In this document: positions 8,975-22,858 of the stretch, one piece after another
How the letters are laid out: every line of letters starts with the position of its first letter
Numbering within the stretch: position 1 is the first letter of the stretch
Assembly: GCA_009777315.1 (NCBI GenBank)
Contig: WRMD01000008.1
Location: forward strand, 1-36,761
DNA from: Candidatus Saccharimonadota bacterium
GTDB lineage: Bacteria; Patescibacteriota; Saccharimonadia; Saccharimonadales; Saccharimonadaceae
Reading direction: 5' to 3'
Length of the DNA stretch: 36,761 nt
The notes under the pieces: model-generated
What the model saw: the letters and a program-made list of their open reading frames with translations, nothing else
Told to the model about the DNA's origin: nothing
Databases searched by the model: none
Program-made: the position numbers and the translations under genes

Positions 8975-9057
8975 CCCCACCCCCTACGGGTAGACACGGC
9001 GTCCAGCAAGGAAAGGAAGAAAACCTTGGTTTTCTTAGTGTGTGACAGTGGCGAAGG
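8975..9057 (-). repeat. Solo 27-bp cassette end with nearby 14-bp end (collapsed cassette)
   Basis: Positions 8975-9001 are the reverse complement of the conserved cassette 3' end (CTACCCGTAGGGGGTGGGG core). Positions 9044-9057 are the reverse complement of the cassette 5' end CCTTCGCCACTGTC. Only about 42 bp separate them, against about 180 bp in the full cassettes, and the coding content is gone. The interval holds a perfect 20-nt palindrome, AAGAAAACCTTGGTTTTCTT. The sequence next to the 27-bp end (GTCCAGC) matches that at the other solo copy (22385). Confidence 0.75.
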
Positions 9058-14098: not shown

Positions 14099-14316
14099 CC
14101 CCACCCCCTACGGGTAGACACAGCGGAGGGAAGCTCCATCAAACTTGGGACTATTGTTTGTGCCCGTATCGACGATGGTAGCGCCTTCGGTCATACGTAG
14201 GGTTGAGATGTTTGCAGATCCAGACGCCGGAGAGGCGTGCCACATAAGAACATAGTTAGACTGATAACGTAGCCCGTTAGGAGTAGCTGTTCTCGCTGCC
14301 GAGACAGTGGCGAAGG
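14099..14316 (-). pseudogene. FISUMP-like C-terminal cassette C1
   Basis: Read on the minus strand it encodes about 68 residues from SFATVS to SLRCVYP-stop. This corresponds to the second half of a Fibrobacter-succinogenes-major-paralogous (FISUMP) domain, a C-type-lectin-like fold (MWHASPASGSANIS then DGASLRCV). No N-terminal half, start codon with ribosome site, or signal peptide precedes it. The shared ends are GACAGTGGCGAAGG (14303-14316) and the 27-bp end (14099-14125). It lies back to back with the ImmA gene, 43 bp away. It may be a dead gene end or a silent donor segment. Confidence 0.75.
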
Positions 14317-14359: not shown

Positions 14360-14911
14360 ATGGACGATTACAGAAAAGTAGCGATTGATAAAGCTAGGGA
14401 AATCGTGAAAAAATACAACCCAAACATTTTAATACCGTTTCCTTTTGAGAACATACTGAAAGAACATGAGGACGTGGAGGTCTTTAGTGTAGACTTGACG
14501 GCAAACGGTTTCTCTGGATTTATTGCCTATGATGACACTGATGGTAAATTTAAAATAGCCCTAAACTCAAGGGATTCTAAGGAGAGGGCTTATTTTACAA
14601 AAGCACACGAACTGGGGCACTATTTCCTGCATGGAGAGGAGATTAAAAACTATAAGGATGGCGACAAGCTAATTACTGATGAGTCGTCTGTCCTTGACCA
14701 TCCGATAATGTTTCGCGGTAATCTTTCCGGGAACAAAATATTTGAAAGGCAGGCGAACAGCTTTGCTGCTGAGCTAATAATGCCAGAGGAGCAGGTTAGA
14801 AATGCCTGGGACGTTTCTGGCGGCGATTTATCGTATTGCGCGAGGGTCTTTGAAGTTTCGTTGACTGCCATGGCTATTCGGGTTGAGGCGCTAGGGTTAA
14901 GGAATGGATAG
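14360..14911 (+). CDS. ImmA/IrrE family metallopeptidase
   Basis: The 183-aa protein has the zinc motif HELGH (residues 83-87) and the downstream RQANSFAAELIMP helix typical of ImmA/IrrE peptidases. Family members cleave repressors in mobile elements, stress responses or toxin-antitoxin modules. No XRE repressor is visible beside it. TATCAT at 14348-14353 lies 6 nt before the ATG, so it is probably leaderless. It overlaps the next gene by 8 bp. Codon choice is less G-rich than in neighbouring housekeeping genes, suggesting acquisition by transfer. Confidence 0.9.
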   Translation: MDDYRKVAIDKAREIVKKYNPNILIPFPFENILKEHEDVEVFSVDLTANGFSGFIAYDDTDGKFKIALNSRDSKERAYFTKAHELGHYFLHGEEIKNYKDGDKLITDESSVLDHPIMFRGNLSGNKIFERQANSFAAELIMPEEQVRNAWDVSGGDLSYCARVFEVSLTAMAIRVEALGLRNG

Positions 14912-15296
14912 CCCAGATAACCCAAAGGAGAGTAATCTTTCAGATTTACTTAAACTACTAACGACTAAAAGCGACAGTAACTTATTTAAGGGTGGTGAAC
15001 AGAAGTATACTGAAAAAACCGAGAGGGCGCGCAAACAAAAGATTGAGAACGATAATTCAGAGGATGATCAACGCCAGAAGAAGTGGCTACTAGAAAAGTT
15101 GGTTTGGTTCTTGAGGGTTGAAACGGTTGCCTTCTTCGTCTTGGCATTTTTGCAAGGGCTTTTACCAAACACAGGATGGTTCCATCTTGAGAGGTGGAGT
15201 TTCAATTTAATAATAATAGCCACAATCTCACAGATTACCGCTATGCTCATGATTGCGGTGAAGCACTTATTCCCTAAGAAAAACGGCAGATCCTAA
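14904..15296 (+). CDS. Two-TM membrane protein paired with ImmA
   Basis: The 130-aa protein has a polar, charged N-terminal half (residues 1-65) and two predicted membrane helices (about 72-91 and 100-121), with a short basic tail. The ATG overlaps the ImmA stop codon by 8 bp, indicating translational coupling and a joint function. I do not recognise the family. A membrane effector or sensor controlled by the peptidase is a reasonable inference. It ends 4 bp before cassette C2. Confidence 0.75.
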   Translation: MDSPDNPKESNLSDLLKLLTTKSDSNLFKGGEQKYTEKTERARKQKIENDNSEDDQRQKKWLLEKLVWFLRVETVAFFVLAFLQGLLPNTGWFHLERWSFNLIIIATISQITAMLMIAVKHLFPKKNGRS

Positions 15297-15300
15297 CTCT

Positions 15301-15521
15301 CCTTCGCCACTGTCTCTATGGGCTGGCTTCAGCCTTCTTCTACTGCTGGCGGCCTCTATACGGAGGGCTCTCCGCCTGCTCTTTGGTGGGTCTCATCGCT
15401 ACACACAGCAACGAGTGCAGCCGCTATGTATGTTCGCTCGGGTAACATCGCTCCAGGCATAGATCGTGACGGCAAAACTATTGGCGAATCCCTCCGCTGT
15501 GTCTACCCGTAGGGGGTGGGG
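15301..15521 (+). pseudogene. FISUMP-like C-terminal cassette C2
   Basis: It reads SFATVS through SLRCVYP-stop (about 69 residues), with WWVSS and GESLRCV as the lectin-like landmarks. It starts with CCTTCGCCACTGTC (15301-15314) and ends with the 27-bp end (15495-15521). It has no start region of its own, since the upstream gene stops 4 bp before it. Together with C1 it encloses the ImmA pair in inverted orientation. It shares short patches (TGGTGGGTCTC, TCCAGGCATA) with C4, giving a mosaic look. Confidence 0.75.
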
Positions 15522-15540
15522 TGTTGTGCTAAAATGAGGT

Positions 15541-15778
15541 ATGATTGTTTTTGATATATTCGGCTGGGCAGGAATGGTTTTAGTCTTGCTGGCATACTTC
15601 CAATAAGATTAAGAACGGTTGGTTCTACCAAATGCTCAACCTCTTGGCAGCATTATCCATGGCTATTGGGCTATTCCCTAAAAACGCATGGTTCTCATTT
15701 GTTCTTCAAGTAGTTTGGGGAATAATTGCAGTGGTTACCTTAGTTCGCCTGAAAAACAAGAAAAAGCCAGACGCTTAG
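15541..15778 (+). pseudogene. Frameshifted CBU_0592-like small membrane protein
   Basis: The first frame gives IFGWAGMVLVLLAYFQ and stops at 15604-15606. A second frame beginning near 15602 continues KNGWFYQMLNLLAALSMAIG through FVLQVVWGIIAVVTLVR to a TAG at 15776. Joined, they match the layout of CBU_0592-type three-helix proteins (also described as related to SemiSWEET). One inserted base or two lost bases near 15600 would explain it. TAAAAT at 15530-15535 stands 5 nt before the ATG. The unit fits between the 27-bp ends of C2 and C3 with 19 and 6 bp to spare. Sequencing error is a possible alternative. Confidence 0.75.
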
Positions 15779-15784
15779 CACTCT

Positions 15785-15996
15785 CCCCACCCCCTACGGG
15801 TAGACACAGCGGAGGGAGAAGCCGTAAGCTTTAGGATTGTTGCCATCGTTGCCCAGGAAGAGGCCCGTGGCATGGACGATTGCGTTAATTGGATTTGTGG
15901 CTGTGCCAAGAGAAGGTGTCCATGTAAACATATATGGCTCCTGACGAAGACCACCCGTAATAGGAAGGAAGACATCCGCTGTGACAGTGGCGAAGG
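15785..15996 (-). pseudogene. FISUMP-like C-terminal cassette C3
   Basis: On the minus strand it reads SFATVTADVFLPITGG through YGFSLRCVYP-stop. ADVFLPxxG and GFSxRCV are typical of FISUMP domains, so this copy supports the family call best. The ends are the 27-bp repeat (15785-15811) and the 14-bp repeat (15983-15996). A promoter and a terminator-like hairpin stand just upstream (16002-16086). No start codon with ribosome site serves it. Confidence 0.78.
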
Positions 15997-16001
15997 ATAA
16001 C

Positions 16002-16057
16002 AAAAAACCAGGGCCTGGGCTCCTGCATCAGCAAGAGCTGTACCCTGATGTGCTTTT
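16002..16057 (-). ncRNA. Short promoter-proximal RNA or attenuator upstream of C3
   Basis: From the promoter at 16058-16086 a transcript of about 50 nt would run leftward. It folds as CATCAG pairing with CTGATG, then CCAGG-C-CCTGG followed by TTTTTT (16018 down to 16002), a good intrinsic terminator. Read-through would enter cassette C3. This may be an attenuator leader or a small RNA. Confidence 0.55.
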
Positions 16058-16086
16058 ATTATACCAATATCATTTTGAATAGTCAA
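16058..16086 (-). promoter_or_regulatory. Consensus promoter reading toward cassette C3
   Basis: On the minus strand TTGACT, a 17-bp spacer and TATAAT are all canonical. Downstream lie the terminator hairpin at 16002-16018 and cassette C3. Confidence 0.8.
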
Positions 16087-16191
16087 GAATTGCGTGTTGG
16101 CGTTCATAGCCTCCCCCCTAAAAATGGTAGCGACGGTGGCGGAGTAAAGGCTATGCTTTGGTTTGTGAATGCAAGAGGCTAATCTTATAGA
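16087..16191. other. Intergenic region upstream of the reverse transcriptase
   Basis: A minus-strand ATG at 16110 has AGGGGGGAGG before it, but its reading frame overlaps the promoter and runs out of frame into C3, so I do not call a gene. I see no clear ribosome site or strong promoter for the reverse transcriptase. Confidence 0.4.
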
Positions 16192-17133
16192 ATGGGAGAG
16201 GGAGAGCATTTTTATAAACTATTACCGGCTTGGCGACGCTTTCGGCGGGGGAAGCAGAGCATGGAGGTGCTTGCTTTTCATGCTGAGCTTGAGCGACATC
16301 TTGCAGAGCTCGCCAACGAACTTCGTATGGGTGCGTATCGACATGGCGGTTATCGCGAACGTTTAATTGCTGACAAGAAAGAAAGGCGGCTGCTAATAGC
16401 CGGGGTGCGTGATCGACTTGTCCACCGCTTGATTTACGAACGACTGGTTGTGGATTTCGACAACCGATTTGACCCGGACGTTTATAGCGGTCGAGTGGGC
16501 AAGGGGCTTGAGAGGGCGGTCTGTCGTACGCAGGCTCTGCTGTCAAGCCCCGATTGCGGCTACACTTGGCGCCTGGATATCCGTCGCTTTTTTGAAAGCG
16601 TTGAGCACGATGTTCTTTTGAGGCTGCTTCGGGGACATCCGTGCTGGACTCTGTGCCGTCAAGTTATTGACAGCTATGACGTGGGGTTTGGGCGGGGGAT
16701 CCCAATAGGAAATCTTACCAGCCAAGTTTTTGCAAACATTTATCTCAACGAATTTGATCGCTACGTACGCCATCACATTAGACCTCGCGGGTATGTCCGC
16801 TACGGGGATGATGTGGTGTTGTTTTTTGCTACGCGTCGCGCCGCTTACGTGGCAAAGGAACAGGGGAGTAGGTGGCTGGGGAATGAGCTGGGGCTTGCGG
16901 TAAATCCAAAGAACAACTATATAGGCGCCGCTGGTGAGCTTCATTTTTTGGGTCATATAATTACGCCCAGTACTATCGAAGCTGACGCGTTTTGCATCAA
17001 AAAAGCTCGAGAAAGGGTCAATTTTCGGAATTTGGGTAGTTATCAGAGGATTCGTCTGCCAACAGAGGTGAAAGATGCTTTAAATCGGCGTATTTTGGTT
17101 GAAATTGAGGCCATAAATGATTCCATATATTGA
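16192..17133 (+). CDS. DGR reverse transcriptase
   Basis: This enzyme copies TR RNA into mutated cDNA that replaces the VR of the target gene. It has 313 aa. Residues 7-20 (FYKLLPAWRRFRRG) match the usual N-terminus. Motif A is RLDIRRFF with D129, the DGR-type motif 4 is GIPIGNLTSQ (169-178), and the catalytic box is YGDD (204-207), followed by FLGHIIT near 252. Most relatives have YADD or YMDD. The nearest in-frame upstream stop is at 16180, so the start is close to certain. Its stop codon TGA overlaps the -35 box of the target promoter. TR, VR and avd nearby confirm the class. Confidence 0.95.
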   Translation: MGEGEHFYKLLPAWRRFRRGKQSMEVLAFHAELERHLAELANELRMGAYRHGGYRERLIADKKERRLLIAGVRDRLVHRLIYERLVVDFDNRFDPDVYSGRVGKGLERAVCRTQALLSSPDCGYTWRLDIRRFFESVEHDVLLRLLRGHPCWTLCRQVIDSYDVGFGRGIPIGNLTSQVFANIYLNEFDRYVRHHIRPRGYVRYGDDVVLFFATRRAAYVAKEQGSRWLGNELGLAVNPKNNYIGAAGELHFLGHIITPSTIEADAFCIKKARERVNFRNLGSYQRIRLPTEVKDALNRRILVEIEAINDSIY

Positions 17134-17158
17134 CATTTTGCTTATGGTGTGCTATAAT
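17130..17158 (+). promoter_or_regulatory. Consensus promoter of the DGR target
   Basis: TTGACA (17130-17135), a 17-bp spacer and TATAAT (17153-17158) with an extended TGC. It lies across the 3' end of the reverse transcriptase gene, so the target is transcribed on its own at a probably high level. Confidence 0.9.
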
Positions 17159-17159
17159 G

Positions 17160-17260
17160 GGGTAGAACCGGAGGAGTTCCCAATGTGAATGTGGGCGCTC
17201 CTTACGGCGCGTACATTAAAATACAGATGGGAACACCCCGGAATTTATGGAGGTGTTTTT
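17160..17260 (+). promoter_or_regulatory. Structured leader of the DGR target with start-stop codon
   Basis: GGAGGAG (17170-17176) precedes ATG-TGA at 17183-17188 with ideal spacing, immediately followed by ATG at 17189 in frame with the target. GTTCCCA (17176-17182) can pair with TGGGAAC (17228-17234). Alternatively AACACC (17232-17237) can pair with GGTGTT (17252-17257) and bury the main ribosome site GGAGG (17249-17253). The two pairings share bases and exclude each other. Confidence 0.55.
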
Positions 17261-18025
17261 ATGAAATGGAATACTAATTGGCAAGATGCTCAAGTTACCA
17301 CTGCGCAACCGACTACGCTTAGTGAGATTATTACTGAGCGGATAAGGCTTTACGAGCGGCTGGACTGGGTTTTAGAAGTTACAGATGACGACATTCAAGC
17401 GCTTATCGCAGCGGCAGCAGAAACCGAGCAACGGATTATCGCCGCAGGGTTGAACCCCAAACCGCACGGTGTTTACCGCATCGGCATCATTCCGGCGTGC
17501 CTGACGGAGCTTCACCCGCACAAAATGCGGACATTGCTCCGCGATTTGCTTGGCCGGACAGACTATGAGGCTTGGGGCTATGTCAACACCGATTATTACG
17601 ACGAAGCTGACTCCCCGAAAGACATCCCGCATGGGTTTACCGAGAACGACATCGGCAAAGTTTTCTTCCTGGTAGAGGATGAAAACGCTCCCGGTCATAA
17701 CTCAGAGATGCCCGGCTCGCTCCTGGCTGATATGGCTTGGGAAGAGAAACGCAACGCGGCTTGGACTGCGTGGAAGGAAAAGTTCGCCAGTGCCGGCGTG
17801 GTCAAAGCGCTTAATTATGCTCTGCATGGTTTGCTGTGGCTGGGAGATGTTGCCGCCTGGGATAAAGCTCTGGGCCGGGTTGGTGTTTATGACTACATCG
17901 AGCAGCCTTATGATGCGGAGCGGAACCTCTGTCCCTGCGGCGATGTCGACGGCGACGAGGCGGAGTGGCGCGCGCGCTGGCCGGATGCGCGTTCGCGCTA
18001 TGCGGTCGCCTCCGTGGTGTGGTGA
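17261..18025 (+). CDS. DGR target (variable) protein
   Basis: The ATG at 17261 follows GGAGGTG with good spacing; an in-frame ATG at 17189 would add 24 residues. The protein is 254 aa with no signal peptide. The N-terminal half is helical and acidic, and residues 160-220 contain many Trp and Ala. The last 36 codons are the variable repeat, where 13 codons carry A-directed changes relative to TR (for example N to R, N to D, Y to C, M to V). The C-terminus AVASV-W resembles the end of lectin-fold DGR targets, but the usual upstream GG and RGG motifs are absent. The fold is therefore uncertain; a binding or display role is inferred from DGR biology. Confidence 0.85.
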   Translation: MKWNTNWQDAQVTTAQPTTLSEIITERIRLYERLDWVLEVTDDDIQALIAAAAETEQRIIAAGLNPKPHGVYRIGIIPACLTELHPHKMRTLLRDLLGRTDYEAWGYVNTDYYDEADSPKDIPHGFTENDIGKVFFLVEDENAPGHNSEMPGSLLADMAWEEKRNAAWTAWKEKFASAGVVKALNYALHGLLWLGDVAAWDKALGRVGVYDYIEQPYDAERNLCPCGDVDGDEAEWRARWPDARSRYAVASVVW

Positions 18026-18026
18026 A
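17919..18026 (+). repeat. DGR variable repeat (VR)
   Basis: This aligns without gaps to the TR at 18293-18400 (offset 374). Of 18 differences, 17 are at TR adenines (12 A to G, 4 A to C, 1 A to T); the last is C to T at 18020. The first variable base is 17937 and the last adenine-linked one 18017. The invariant 3' part TATGCGGTCGCCTCCGTG is the likely initiation-of-mutagenic-homing segment. Confidence 0.96.
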
Positions 18027-18094
18027 ACTCTTAGCCTTCGGGCCCTTTCGCCTTTCCTTTTTCTTTTTCTTAAACTTCTCGTCTGTTACAATAA

Positions 18095-18139
18095 AGTCAC
18101 GATTTAGCGCGTTAATAACGCCAAAAGTCGTGGCTTTTT
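18095..18139 (+). terminator. Intrinsic terminator after the DGR target
   Basis: AGTCACGA (18095-18102) pairs with TCGTGGCT (18128-18135), with a nested hairpin GCGTTAATAACGC (18110-18122) inside and TTTTT following. It separates the target mRNA from the TR. Between 18027 and 18094 there is only a pyrimidine-rich stretch. Confidence 0.8.
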
Positions 18140-18292
18140 CTTTGTCAAAAGTTAGGGAAGCTACTGGACTTACGAGCGGGCGTGGCAAATCTACCGAGAT
18201 AAGAATCTCACCACACGAGCGCCCAATATATCGTGACCAAAGCAGCCGAGTTATGCGTAACGCGGTGTAAGTAGAAGTATTGGGGATCAAAA
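18140..18292 (+). other. Spacer between terminator and TR
   Basis: I see no gene. By analogy with other DGRs it should form the 5' part of the TR RNA or hold its promoter, but I cannot identify a consensus promoter here. Confidence 0.35.
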
Positions 18293-18400
18293 AGCGGAAC
18301 CTCTGTCCCTACGGCAATGTCAACGACGACAAGGCGAAGTGGAACGCGAACAGGCCGAATGCGAATTCGAACTATGCGGTCGCCTCCGTGATGCGGTGAA
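18293..18400 (+). repeat. DGR template repeat (TR)
   Basis: The 108-nt template is rich in AAC/AAT codons (conceptually NVNDD, NANRPNANSNY), placing adenines where mutagenesis gives the widest amino-acid choice. Between 18311 and 18391 there are 24 adenines, 17 of which differ in the VR; none of the 57 non-adenine positions in that span differ. Confidence 0.96.
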
Positions 18401-18404
18401 TATG

Positions 18405-18426
18405 ACCGAGCTTAGGCTCGGTTTTC
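18405..18426 (+). terminator. Terminator of the TR RNA
   Basis: ACCGAGC (18405-18411) pairs perfectly with GCTCGGT (18416-18422) around a TTAG loop, followed by TTTT. It starts 5 nt after the TR and lies just beyond the stop codon of convergent avd, so it may also stop avd transcription. Confidence 0.82.
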
Positions 18427-18429
18427 GGT

Positions 18430-18768
18430 TTAGCCGATGCTTTTTCGCCAGCCACCCAGCATGCGGCCGATCTCAAGCGTTCGTGCTTGTAGCTGGTGCA
18501 AGGTAGTCTGGTTCGCAAGATTTTGATTGATCATTAGGCGAAGGAATATCATGATCACTTCTTGCAGGGCGCAGGCTTTGATGAGGTAGGGGGCTTTGTT
18601 GGGGCGGGGAGCGTTCTTGGCCATGATTTCGTATTCCAGCAAGCTGAGGATCGCGTCTTCCAGGCGACGGCCGAGGGTTTGTCGCTGTAAACCGCTCAAC
18701 TTTTCGCACACGCGTAAGCTTGCTCCATAAAGCTCTTCGGTCTTTGTAATCAATGGTAAATCGTCCAC
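18430..18768 (-). CDS. avd: DGR accessory protein Avd
   Basis: The 112-aa all-helical, basic protein matches the Avd/four-helix-bundle family (related to the bacterial 23S rRNA insertion protein fold) in length and pattern (LQRQTLGRRLEDAILSLLEY, LIKACALQEVIMIFLRLM). Avd forms a pentameric barrel that binds the RT and TR RNA and is required for retrohoming in known DGRs. It starts with GTG; TATAAT on the minus strand (18781-18776) is 7 nt before it, so it is probably leaderless. Here it is convergent with the TR, whereas in many DGRs it is co-directional. Confidence 0.9.
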   Translation of the reverse strand: MDDLPLITKTEELYGASLRVCEKLSGLQRQTLGRRLEDAILSLLEYEIMAKNAPRPNKAPYLIKACALQEVIMIFLRLMINQNLANQTTLHQLQARTLEIGRMLGGWRKSIG

Positions 18769-18775
18769 AACCTGG

Positions 18776-18843
18776 ATTATAACATGATTTAAGGGATTAG
18801 AGTTTGCTTATGGGTGTTTTTTGTGATAGAGGTGTGCTAGAAT
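18776..18843. promoter_or_regulatory. Divergent promoters of avd and secA
   Basis: On the minus strand TG-T-TATAAT (18781-18776) serves avd. On the plus strand TGTGC-TAGAAT (18838-18843) serves secA, 10 nt before its ATG. No strong -35 box is seen for either. Confidence 0.65.
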
Positions 18844-18853
18844 AGGGAAAGTT

Positions 18854-21586
18854 ATGAAGAGGGAAAAACAACCAGCGGGGGGGGCGAGGAAGAAGCCAAC
18901 GGATAAATTGGCGGATAGGTCAGCGAAGACAAGGTTTTTGCAGCATATTTTTGGTGACGCGCAGAAGGCGACGCTGAAGCGGCTGGAGAAGCGAGTATCA
19001 GAGATAAATGCGCTGGAAGAGAAGTTTAAAAAGATGAAGAAAAAGGAGCTTCAGGGGTATACTGAGGTTCTGAAAGAGAAGTTGAAGAAGAAGGGCGTGA
19101 CGCTGGAGACGGTGTTGCCGGAGGCGTTTGCGTTGGTGCGGGAGGCGTCGGTGCGGGTCTTAGGGATGCGGCATTTTGACGTGCAGATGGTCGGTGGGAT
19201 AGCGCTACATGAGGGGCGGGTGGCGGAGATGAAGACCGGTGAGGGGAAGACTTTGGTGGCGACGCTGCCGCTGTATTTGAATGCTTTGCTGGGTCGTGGT
19301 GTGCATCTTGTGACGGTGAATGATTATTTGGTGCAACATCAGGCGGGCTGGATGGGAGAATTGTATGATTTCCTCGGGATGACGACAGGGGTGATTTCGC
19401 ATGATACGAGCTATGTTTACGAGAAGGATTTTGAGAATCCGGACTTTGAAGATCCATATATGAAGCGGCTAAGGCCGGCGAGTCGGAAGGAAGCGTATGC
19501 GGCGGACATTACTTACGGGACGAATAATGAGTATGGGTTTGACTATTTGCGGGATAACATGGTGAATGATGCGAAGCTGCTGCGGCAGCGGGATTTGTAT
19601 TTTGCGATCGTGGACGAGGTGGACTCGATTTTGATTGATGAGGCGCGGACGCCGCTGATTATTAGTGCGCCGGCAGCGGAGAATCCACAGGCGTATTATC
19701 AGTTTGCGCAGGTGATGAAGATTTTGCAAGATGAAGATTATTTGCATGATGAGAAGCGGCGAAATGTGACCCTGACCGATTCGGGAGTGGAGAAGCTGGA
19801 GCGGATTCTAGGGGTGACGGATCTGTATAACGCGAATAATGTGCAGATGATTTATCATATTGAGCAGGCGCTCAGGGCTGAGGTGGTGTTTAGGCGTGAT
19901 AAAGATTATGTGGTGACGAATGATGGTGAAGTGTTGATTGTCGATGAGCATACGGGGCGGGTGATGAGTGGGCGAAGGTATTCGGAGGGGCTGCATCAGG
20001 CGATCGAGGCGAAAGAAGCGGTGGAGGTAAAACAGGAGTCGAGGACGCTGGCGACGGTGTCGTTTCAGAACTTTTTCCGGTTGTATGAGAAGCTATCTGG
20101 GATGACGGGGACGGCGTTTACCGAGGCGGAGGAGTTTCAGCAGATTTACGCGCTGGATGTGGTGCAGATTCCGACGAATAAGCCGATTACGCGGGTGGAC
20201 GAGGATGATTTGATTTTTAAGACTGAGCTCATGAAGATGAAGGCGGTGGCGGACGAGGTGAAAAAGTTTAACGAGCAGGGGCGGCCGGTGCTAGTGGGGT
20301 CGGCGTCGATTGTGAAGAATGAGATGATTGCGGACTTTTTGCGGAAAGAAGGGGTCGAGTTTGAGATCTTGAACGCGAAGAATAATGAGCGGGAGGCGGC
20401 GATTATCGCGAAAGCCGGTCAGAAGGGGGCGGTGACGTTGGCGACGAACATGGCTGGACGAGGGACGGATATTAAGTTGGGCGATGGGGTGCGGGAGCTA
20501 GGTGGGCTGGTGGTGATTGGTAGTGAGCGGCATGAGTCGCGGCGGATTGATAATCAATTGCGTGGGCGTGGTGGGCGACAGGGCGATCCAGGGACGACGC
20601 AGTTTTTCGTGTCGACAGAAGATGATTTGATGCGGATTTTTCAGGGGGAAAGGTTGGCGGCGATTTTGGGGCGGCTGGGGATTACGGATGATATGCCGAT
20701 TCAGGCGAGGGCGATTAGCCGGACGCTGGAGAGCGCGCAGAAACGGGTGGAAGGGTTTCATTTTGATGCGCGGAAGAACGTGGTGCAGTATGATAATGTG
20801 ATTAACCGGCATCGAAAAGTGGTGTATACGATGCGGCGACGGATTTTGGATGGTGAAGATTTGCAGGGGGACATTCGGAAGTTGCTCCGACAGGTGGTGG
20901 AGGATTTGGTGGCGATACCGGCGAAGTATAATCCACGGTTTACGCAGGATTTTAGGTCGATTTTTAATGCTGATGCGGAGATGATCGGGAAAATCGGGAA
21001 GATTAAGCGTGATAAAGAGCGGATGGAGATGGCGGAGAAGGAAGCGTTGGATCTTTATCGGCGGAAGGAAGTGGAGCTGGGCGAGGATATTATGCGGCCG
21101 CTGGAGCGTGAGGTGTATCTGTCGGTGTTGGATAGTTTGTGGATGCAGCACCTAGAGAATATGCAGCATTTGCGAGAGGGGATTCATTGGCGGAGTGTGG
21201 GGCAGAGGGATCCGCTGGTGGAATATCGGAGCGAGAGTCAGAAGATGTTTACGGATTTGCAGCGGGCGCTACGGGAGACGATTGTGAAATTGCTGCTCAG
21301 TGCGACGAGGCAAGAGGCGTATGAGGCGGCGGGTGATGAAGATTATGAATCGGAGCTGACGCGGATGGCTGGGTCGGCGGTGGATAAGGGCGTGAATGAA
21401 GTAGGGTCGGGGAAGAAGGTTAAGGATAAGGATTTTAAAGAGGGTGAAGTGGTGAAGAAGGCGGCTGGTTCCGGGGCGGTCGGTGCGGCTTCGGGGCGGA
21501 AGAAGAAGTCGGGTAAGTCGGGCGGCAGGTCAGGCGGTAAGGGCAAGTCGGGCAATAAGAAAAATAGAGCTGGCAAGAGGCGCTAA
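18854..21586 (+). CDS. secA: Protein translocase ATPase SecA
   Basis: SecA drives protein export through SecYEG. The 910-aa sequence has Walker A MKTGEGKT (about residues 125-132), the DEAD-like VDEVDSILIDEARTP, the preprotein cross-linking region, motif GRGTDIKLG, and RGRGGRQGDPG. The C-terminal 60 residues are Lys/Gly/Ser rich and lack the Cys-rich SEC-C zinc site found in many bacteria. A 28-residue basic N-terminal extension precedes the core. The ruvA ATG follows its stop codon directly. Confidence 0.97.
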   Translation: MKREKQPAGGARKKPTDKLADRSAKTRFLQHIFGDAQKATLKRLEKRVSEINALEEKFKKMKKKELQGYTEVLKEKLKKKGVTLETVLPEAFALVREASVRVLGMRHFDVQMVGGIALHEGRVAEMKTGEGKTLVATLPLYLNALLGRGVHLVTVNDYLVQHQAGWMGELYDFLGMTTGVISHDTSYVYEKDFENPDFEDPYMKRLRPASRKEAYAADITYGTNNEYGFDYLRDNMVNDAKLLRQRDLYFAIVDEVDSILIDEARTPLIISAPAAENPQAYYQFAQVMKILQDEDYLHDEKRRNVTLTDSGVEKLERILGVTDLYNANNVQMIYHIEQALRAEVVFRRDKDYVVTNDGEVLIVDEHTGRVMSGRRYSEGLHQAIEAKEAVEVKQESRTLATVSFQNFFRLYEKLSGMTGTAFTEAEEFQQIYALDVVQIPTNKPITRVDEDDLIFKTELMKMKAVADEVKKFNEQGRPVLVGSASIVKNEMIADFLRKEGVEFEILNAKNNEREAAIIAKAGQKGAVTLATNMAGRGTDIKLGDGVRELGGLVVIGSERHESRRIDNQLRGRGGRQGDPGTTQFFVSTEDDLMRIFQGERLAAILGRLGITDDMPIQARAISRTLESAQKRVEGFHFDARKNVVQYDNVINRHRKVVYTMRRRILDGEDLQGDIRKLLRQVVEDLVAIPAKYNPRFTQDFRSIFNADAEMIGKIGKIKRDKERMEMAEKEALDLYRRKEVELGEDIMRPLEREVYLSVLDSLWMQHLENMQHLREGIHWRSVGQRDPLVEYRSESQKMFTDLQRALRETIVKLLLSATRQEAYEAAGDEDYESELTRMAGSAVDKGVNEVGSGKKVKDKDFKEGEVVKKAAGSGAVGAASGRKKKSGKSGGRSGGKGKSGNKKNRAGKRR

Positions 21587-22384: not shown

Positions 22385-22439
22385 CCCCACCCCCTACGGG
22401 TAGACACAGCGTCCAGCTAAGAGACACCTAGCGGTTTCT
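22385..22439 (-). repeat. Solo 27-bp cassette end plus hairpin
   Basis: Positions 22385-22411 are the reverse complement of the cassette 3' end. They are followed by GTCCAGC and a hairpin, AAGAGACACC with GGTTTCTCTT. The copy at 8975 has GTCCAGC and a different-sequence hairpin at the same place. No cassette body is attached. Confidence 0.75.
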
Positions 22440-22643: not shown

Positions 22644-22858
22644 CCTTCGCCACTGTCACTGCGGATATTTTTGTTTCAGTTCTTGGCATATATGGCAGAT
22701 ATGAGAATGGTCATGCATGGTGGTGGGTCTCGAGCCCCTACACAGGATATCATGCGTCTCACACAATCATGAATGCTATCAGCATAAATCCAGGCATATC
22801 TGTGAGAGCTAAGCCAGATGGTATACCCCTCCGCTGTGTCTACCCGTAGGGGGTGGGG
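22644..22858 (+). pseudogene. FISUMP-like C-terminal cassette C4
   Basis: It reads SFATVTADIFVSVLG, then AWWWVSSPYTGYH, and ends with IPLRCVYP-stop, again only the C-terminal half of a FISUMP domain. The 14-bp end is at 22644-22657 and the 27-bp end at 22832-22858. It sits between the small-RNA promoter, which points away, and the alaS promoter. It has no start codon or ribosome site of its own. Confidence 0.75.

Follow-up and report, generated by a model that had tools for sequence, protein, structure and literature searches.

The 36,761-nt stretch of DNA analyzed here (the window) is contig C8 of assembly G000 (834 kb, 87% complete). It comes from a Saccharimonadales-type Patescibacterium and carries a diversity-generating retroelement (DGR). 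We propose, at a probability of about 0.6, that this DGR acts on a target gene in cis and on a second target in a prophage in trans, and that its RNA bears a short guide that steers homing. The DGR itself belongs to a known kind, and its relatives occur in Saccharibacteria or in 'Nomurabacteria' bins of the same family. Genomes are denoted below by G codes and compared loci by L codes, L004 being the prophage contig of the same assembly (G000:C13).

The sequence-only reading had proposed a complete DGR from its template repeat (TR) and variable repeat (VR), and its figures were reproduced when the alignment was recomputed base by base. The TR (18293-18400, + strand) aligned with 17919-18026 without gaps over 108 nt and with 18 mismatches, 17 of them at template adenines (12 A>G, 4 A>C, and 1 A>T) and the remaining one a C>T at 18394; none of the 57 non-adenine positions in 18311-18391 was changed. 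With mismatches placed at random, 17 or more of the 18 would hit the 29 adenines with a hypergeometric probability of 3e-11. Two of the mismatches, the A>G (18391) and the C>T (18394), lie inside the block where the initiation of mutagenic homing site (IMH) of VR1 (18017-18025, +; GTGTGGTGA) aligns with its TR counterpart (IMH*, 18391-18399; ATGCGGTGA), and these are the only two positions at which IMH and IMH* differ. Both letters recur in the prophage VR (VR2), and the VRs of relatives depart from their TRs in a similar way in this block. We therefore took the mutagenized set to be 16 adenines, and VR1 proper (17919-18016, +) is changed at 16 of its 26 template adenines and at no other base. 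Adenine changes were strongly skewed to G in the clade, as noted across the TR/VR pairs of the window, L022, L048, and L076-L079 (e.g., 12 of 17 in the window, 19 of 21 in VR2, and 16 of 20 in L022).

The reverse transcriptase (RT) and Avd that this reading had placed on either side of the pair were borne out by profile matches, by the loci of relatives and, for the RT, by the list of solved structures. The RT gene (16192-17133, +; 313 aa) encodes the DGR-type IGxxxSQ motif as IGNLTSQ, together with YGDD, and matched RVT_1 (8.1e-14) and a PHROG RT (1.5e-65). The top solved-structure match of its clade profile was PDB 8ub7, a 328-aa RT (1.1e-35), and 6ar1 was among the best PDB matches. The convergent avd (accessory variability determinant; 18430-18768, - strand; 112 aa) matched bAvd (PF22296, 6.7e-9) at 36.6 bits, i.e., 3.4 under the Pfam cut-off of 40, and is 52-65% identical to the avd genes beside the DGRs of close relatives (tblastn). 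With a DGR-type RT, avd, TR, VR, and adenine-only substitutions all present, the element is complete.

When the interval between VR and avd was aligned in eight genomes, a conserved stretch appeared ~90 nt before the TR. RNAalifold, applied to the trimmed alignment, folded this element (18203-18300, +) into a long-range helix, P1 (18217-18228 with 18278-18288), and an inner hairpin, P2 (18246-18253 with 18258-18265, with a UGCG loop), for a total of 18 pairs, 16 of which were changed on both sides. Pair counts showed 95.1% of cells to be paired, compared to 67.6% in shuffles and 34-52% when the structure was slid, the slid control being the one that keeps relatedness while control (a) of the pair-count tool does not. 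P1 was paired in every sequence, and 0 of 500 shuffles reached any of the measures. A covariance model (R1) found two genomes outside its training set, G411 and G200, with both hits at TR/avd and, in G411, with an RT in the same gene order. An Rfam scan of the window returned tRNA only, and the locus (14900-18900) gave no match at E-values up to 0.1.

Downstream of the TR, a terminator-like hairpin (18404-18427, +) begins within 4 nt, leaving no 3' spacer; a similar hairpin occurs in several relatives, and elsewhere avd starts directly. As far as the sequence indicates, a structured 3' spacer between TR and RT, like that of phage BPP-1, has no place here. Upstream, an extended -10-like element (18084-18092, +; TGTTACAAT) is the presumed start of the TR RNA. 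Since such a sequence also lies upstream of the structured element in related loci, the TR RNA is probably its own transcript, with a predicted length of ~330 nt from ~18093 to the terminator at 18427. It would begin with a 5' hairpin (18093-18137, +) that has a 13-bp outer stem and an inner GCGTTA/TAACGC stem.

Just 5' of P1, the leader is complementary to the 3' end of the VR. In the window, this guide segment (18208-18216, +; TCACCACAC) pairs with the IMH of VR1 at 9 of 9 positions, as seen both as an inverted repeat and by pairing analysis, retains a 7-nt match to the remote VR2, and is mismatched to the TR. In all 10 genomes compared, the longest Watson-Crick run with the VR (5-9 nt) ended at the same leader base. 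The mean VR run was 7.1 nt against 4.6 nt for non-cognate pairs (permutation p = 2e-5, the floor of the test), while the mean TR run was 5.5 against 4.7 nt (p = 0.03). At fixed positions, namely the five bases next to P1, 50 of 50 pair with the VR and 36 of 50 with the TR. All 14 discriminating positions, i.e., those at which VR differs from TR, fit the VR and none fits the TR, and each TR places an A opposite a guide C. Seven different guide/IMH combinations were seen, all of them perfect. The rule was then applied to 14 other DGRs of the order, none of which had been used in forming it, with the same outcome for the VR (6.79 vs. 5.20 nt, p = 2e-5; TR, p = 0.06). Some VRs in this set differ from their TR by non-adenine letters and the leader again fits the VR, as in G047b (GGCGAGG vs. 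GGCCAGG in the TR) and G073 (VR GGAGTGCT vs. TR GGACTGCT). From these patterns, we infer that an RNA guide sets the direction of homing, distinguishing target from template.

Searching the genome with the TR led to three places: the TR, VR1, and VR2 (G000:C13:6457-6560). VR2 differs from the TR by 21 changes at TR adenines and 4 elsewhere, and lies in a 238-aa gene that shares an ATGA overlap with a VRR-NUC gene. RecT and a PDDEXK-FtsK fusion are encoded upstream, and an Lcl_C-type lectin gene and an M23/CW_7 endolysin downstream. Since pilus genes are found on the same contig, we consider this region to be an integrated prophage of G000, cut by the contig start. The two targets are homologous, with 44% identity over the last 150 residues. 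At template adenines, VR1 and VR2 were changed to different bases at 5 positions and in only one of the two at 7 others, indirect evidence that points to repeated mutagenic homing. Neither another TR nor a further RT above 1e-20 was found in the assembly. The prophage protein is probably also scrambled by the DGR. A remote second target is also present in G009, where the setting is chromosomal, beside Fe-S and nrd genes, and only adenine changes are seen. In that genome, the assembly breaks (L021 1-901, L037 1-894, and L040 1400-1900) at a repeat common to the 3' ends of the two target genes. In the fusion gene of the prophage (L004 8168-9976, -), a single frame of 602 aa contains both a PD-(D/E)XK exonuclease and an FtsK alpha/motor domain.

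From the parts, the adenine rule, the covarying fold, and the VR-specific complement, we infer a mechanism for priming, target pairing, TR protection, and trans homing. RT and Avd would bind the TR RNA via P1 and P2, and the guide would pair imperfectly with the 3' end of the TR (IMH*), whereupon template-primed cDNA would start at its 5' edge (~18390). The RT would then copy the TR upstream, misreading adenines. The guide would next pair perfectly with the sense strand of the target at the IMH, and guide and attached cDNA would form one continuous antisense strand across the 3' boundary of the VR. Mismatches with the TR, always including the A opposite a guide C, would result in the VR being rewritten and the TR spared. 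Trans targets could be any genes that have VR homology and an IMH fitting the guide, the prophage gene included. Preference is reported for the cDNA-complementary strand of the target when this strand templates lagging-strand synthesis (PMC12875486), and the orientation proposed here would fit this preference, as the guide would pair with the strand in question.

The main rival to a VR-directed guide is that the segment serves only to prime on the TR, as a template-primer homoduplex, and that post-homing repair transfers a copy of the RNA/cDNA junction to the VR, making the IMH a product and not a recognition site. The leader does pair with the TR 3' end and its flank above non-cognate controls (core p = 1.5e-4; 12 of 12 in G120), and a spacer adenine primes cDNA synthesis in BPP-1 (PMC12875486). 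However, the VR outmatches the TR at every discriminating position, pairing with the TR did not reach p < 0.05 in the independent set, and in BPP-1 the direction of information transfer is set by the IMH of the recipient, where the 3' end of the VR departs from the TR over a short stretch (PMC3240598). We therefore consider priming alone to be unlikely, while regarding it as a serious competitor. A related structure, a retron-like closing stem between the leader and the TR 3' flank, was our first reading; it holds in some genomes, but the VR fits the core better in all, and it was kept only as a rival. The VR end and the leader might otherwise form an inverted repeat in cis, a cruciform or mRNA hairpin acting like the stem-loop needed 3' of the IMH in BPP-1. 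The two parts do lie on one strand in most loci (166 nt apart in the window), but L023, whose VR and TR lie on opposite strands, keeps an 8-nt match, ruling out a cis hairpin in that locus, the prophage VR2 keeps its match without a leader nearby, and several VRs are immediately followed by a readable short hairpin of their own (GCCTCagtccttaGAGGC in the case of VR2), making this explanation very improbable. Scarcely better is the prospect of an ordinary DGR with a conserved RNA, in which the IMH complement is inherited similarity without function. Guide and IMH are related across the clade and non-cognate pairing already reaches 70%, but the seven distinct combinations are all perfect, and the permutation test gave p = 2e-5 in two separate sets.

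Several observations weigh against a guide-directed DGR with two targets. The guide is only 5 nt long in two clade members (G096 and G120), and in these two and in G009 pairing of the guide region extends further into the flank of the TR than into that of the VR; its template-priming role may be the dominant one. The four non-adenine differences of VR2 may mean that its last homing was old, or was carried out by the DGR of a relative. The terminator after the TR is not universal, being lacking in G047 and G021. Outside the order, IMH complements in 12 other phage DGRs did not exceed chance, and none was consistent among the DGRs that the RT profile identified in other phyla, a comparison made without a formal statistic. 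In BPP-1, the spacer segment AGGTGGTCA (Sp 48-56) is the exact complement of the VR IMH TGACCACCT, where the TR reads TGCCCATCA; by length alone, a 9-nt complement has P = 0.08 in a 550-nt neighborhood, which is suggestive but counts against using it as support for generality. Considering the chance-level result for the 12 phage DGRs and this value for BPP-1, generality is not claimed. A broader idea, that DGRs are RNA-guided by a segment beside the priming site that pairs with the sense-strand IMH of the target, sets the VR-versus-TR direction and permits trans or prophage targets, with the guide 5' of the TR in Saccharimonadales and in the spacer (Sp 48-56) in BPP-1, is tentative and somewhat doubtful. 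We take cDNA synthesis in BPP-1 to be primed at Sp A56 and to start at TR 117. Given that priming site, the last base of the BPP-1 guide would be the priming base itself, and the cDNA would begin at the neighboring position of the VR.

The window DGR shares with that of BPP-1 (mtd-avd-TR-brt) the RT-Avd-TR-VR logic, changes confined to adenines, differences between IMH and IMH* at the 3' end of the VR, an RNA of conserved structure beside the TR, and a 9-nt IMH complement within that RNA. It differs in that the structured spacer of BPP-1 is 3' of the TR, whereas here the element is 5' of the TR and a terminator follows; moreover, the RT is upstream of the target, avd is convergent, and the target is bacterial, with a second one in a prophage. 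DGRs of Patescibacteria (Candidate Phyla Radiation; DGR clade 2, Roux et al. 2021, PMC8144416) are likewise cellular and found in reduced genomes, but the passages and papers that we consulted do not describe this gene order, an RNA element, a guide, or a prophage target. In retrons, msr precedes msd, just as a structured, presumably priming part here lies 5' of the copied part; however, the window has neither a retron effector nor msDNA, and the cDNA is used for homing. Retron identity was ruled out by the clear TR/VR pair, and no Rfam match was found. The EBS-IBS interaction of group II introns, whose RTs are related, also pairs a short RNA segment with a DNA target beside the retrohoming site, but there is no RNA self-insertion or ribozyme here, and no Rfam intron match was found in the locus scan. 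In the literature examined, which had subscription papers, including the cryo-EM study behind 8ub7, outside its scope, we found no description of the 5' RNA element, the rearranged RNA, or the IMH-specific guide, so an earlier description is possible.

The gene order had been called unusual, which holds relative to BPP-1 but not within a clade of Saccharimonadales DGRs, where it is conserved. The order RT, target with VR, TR, and convergent avd recurs in G003, G130, G096, G111, G125, G120 (with a broken RT), and G411, a member of another family of the same order; in G009 the order can be followed from one contig end to another, which makes eight further genomes, and the G200 locus is cut off where its contig begins. 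A sister set (G047, G021, G020, and G073) instead has VR, TR, convergent avd, and then RT. Since the arrangement recurs in relatives and the sister set differs, it is a property of the clade. Several genomes bear a second, more divergent DGR RT besides that of the clade: L023 (G003:C20), L071 (G125:C23), and L160 (G111). RT genes split by a stop or frameshift were found in L029 (G030:C17) and L079 (G120:C19), suggesting recent loss; TR and VR look intact in G120.

The cis target gene (17261-18025, +; 254 aa) carries the VR at its C-terminus and is preceded by a consensus sigma-70 promoter (17130-17158, +), TTGACA-17-TATAAT with an extended -10, that agrees at 12 of 12 consensus positions. ATG 17261 has a better context as the start than 17189. 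Homologues occur in G009, G130, and the prophage on G000:C13, and the family is present in only 3 of 295 genomes of the bacterial family. A pattern search of viral and genome collections found no relatives. As to whether the VR lies in a C-type-lectin domain, the protein had no Pfam or PHROG match, and AlphaFold2 with five homologues reached a mean pLDDT of 48, too low for a fold comparison. Upstream of the DGR, at 14360-14911, an IrrE/ImmA-like M78 peptidase gene (PF06114, 2.9e-19) with phage-repressor-type relatives adjoins a silent lectin cassette.

Such cassettes are marked by an exact 22-nt repeat (TGTCTACCCGTAGGGGGTGGGG) that has 117 copies in G000 and none for the reversed control. In the window it lies at 8975-8996 (-), 14099-14120 (-), 15500-15521 (+), 15785-15806 (-), 22385-22406 (-), and 22837-22858 (+), and in L004 at 10991, 11450, 18507, 19020, and 19235. 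Almost every copy sampled stands at the end of a startless frame of ~65-75 aa (SFATVS...WWxSSLxS...PG...YGxSLRCVYP) that resembles the C-terminal part of a prophage gene of the Lcl_C/Fib_succ_major type. The interior of the cassettes is hypervariable; their left edge (TTCGCCACTGTC), which lies ~170-200 nt ahead of the repeat, is conserved. They are often found two per site, tail-out and 400-510 nt apart. Together, the copies look like a dispersed archive of silent lectin-end cassettes. The prophage has a full-length Lcl_C-type lectin gene (L004 4821-5453, -) with an end (...WWTSSLSSG...GFSVRCVYDLS) that resembles the cassettes, and this gene is possibly their expressed partner.

How mutagenized cDNA finds its target is still described as incompletely understood (PMC12875486). 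In all 10 DGRs compared in one clade, an RNA segment beside the TR complements the IMH and not IMH*; this rule was repeated in an independent set, and a guide of this kind would explain how DGRs tell target from template. If true, remote targets could be located, and DGR tools retargeted, by a simple rule. A bacterial DGR with a trans target in a prophage prompts a further question, namely who benefits from the diversity that it generates.

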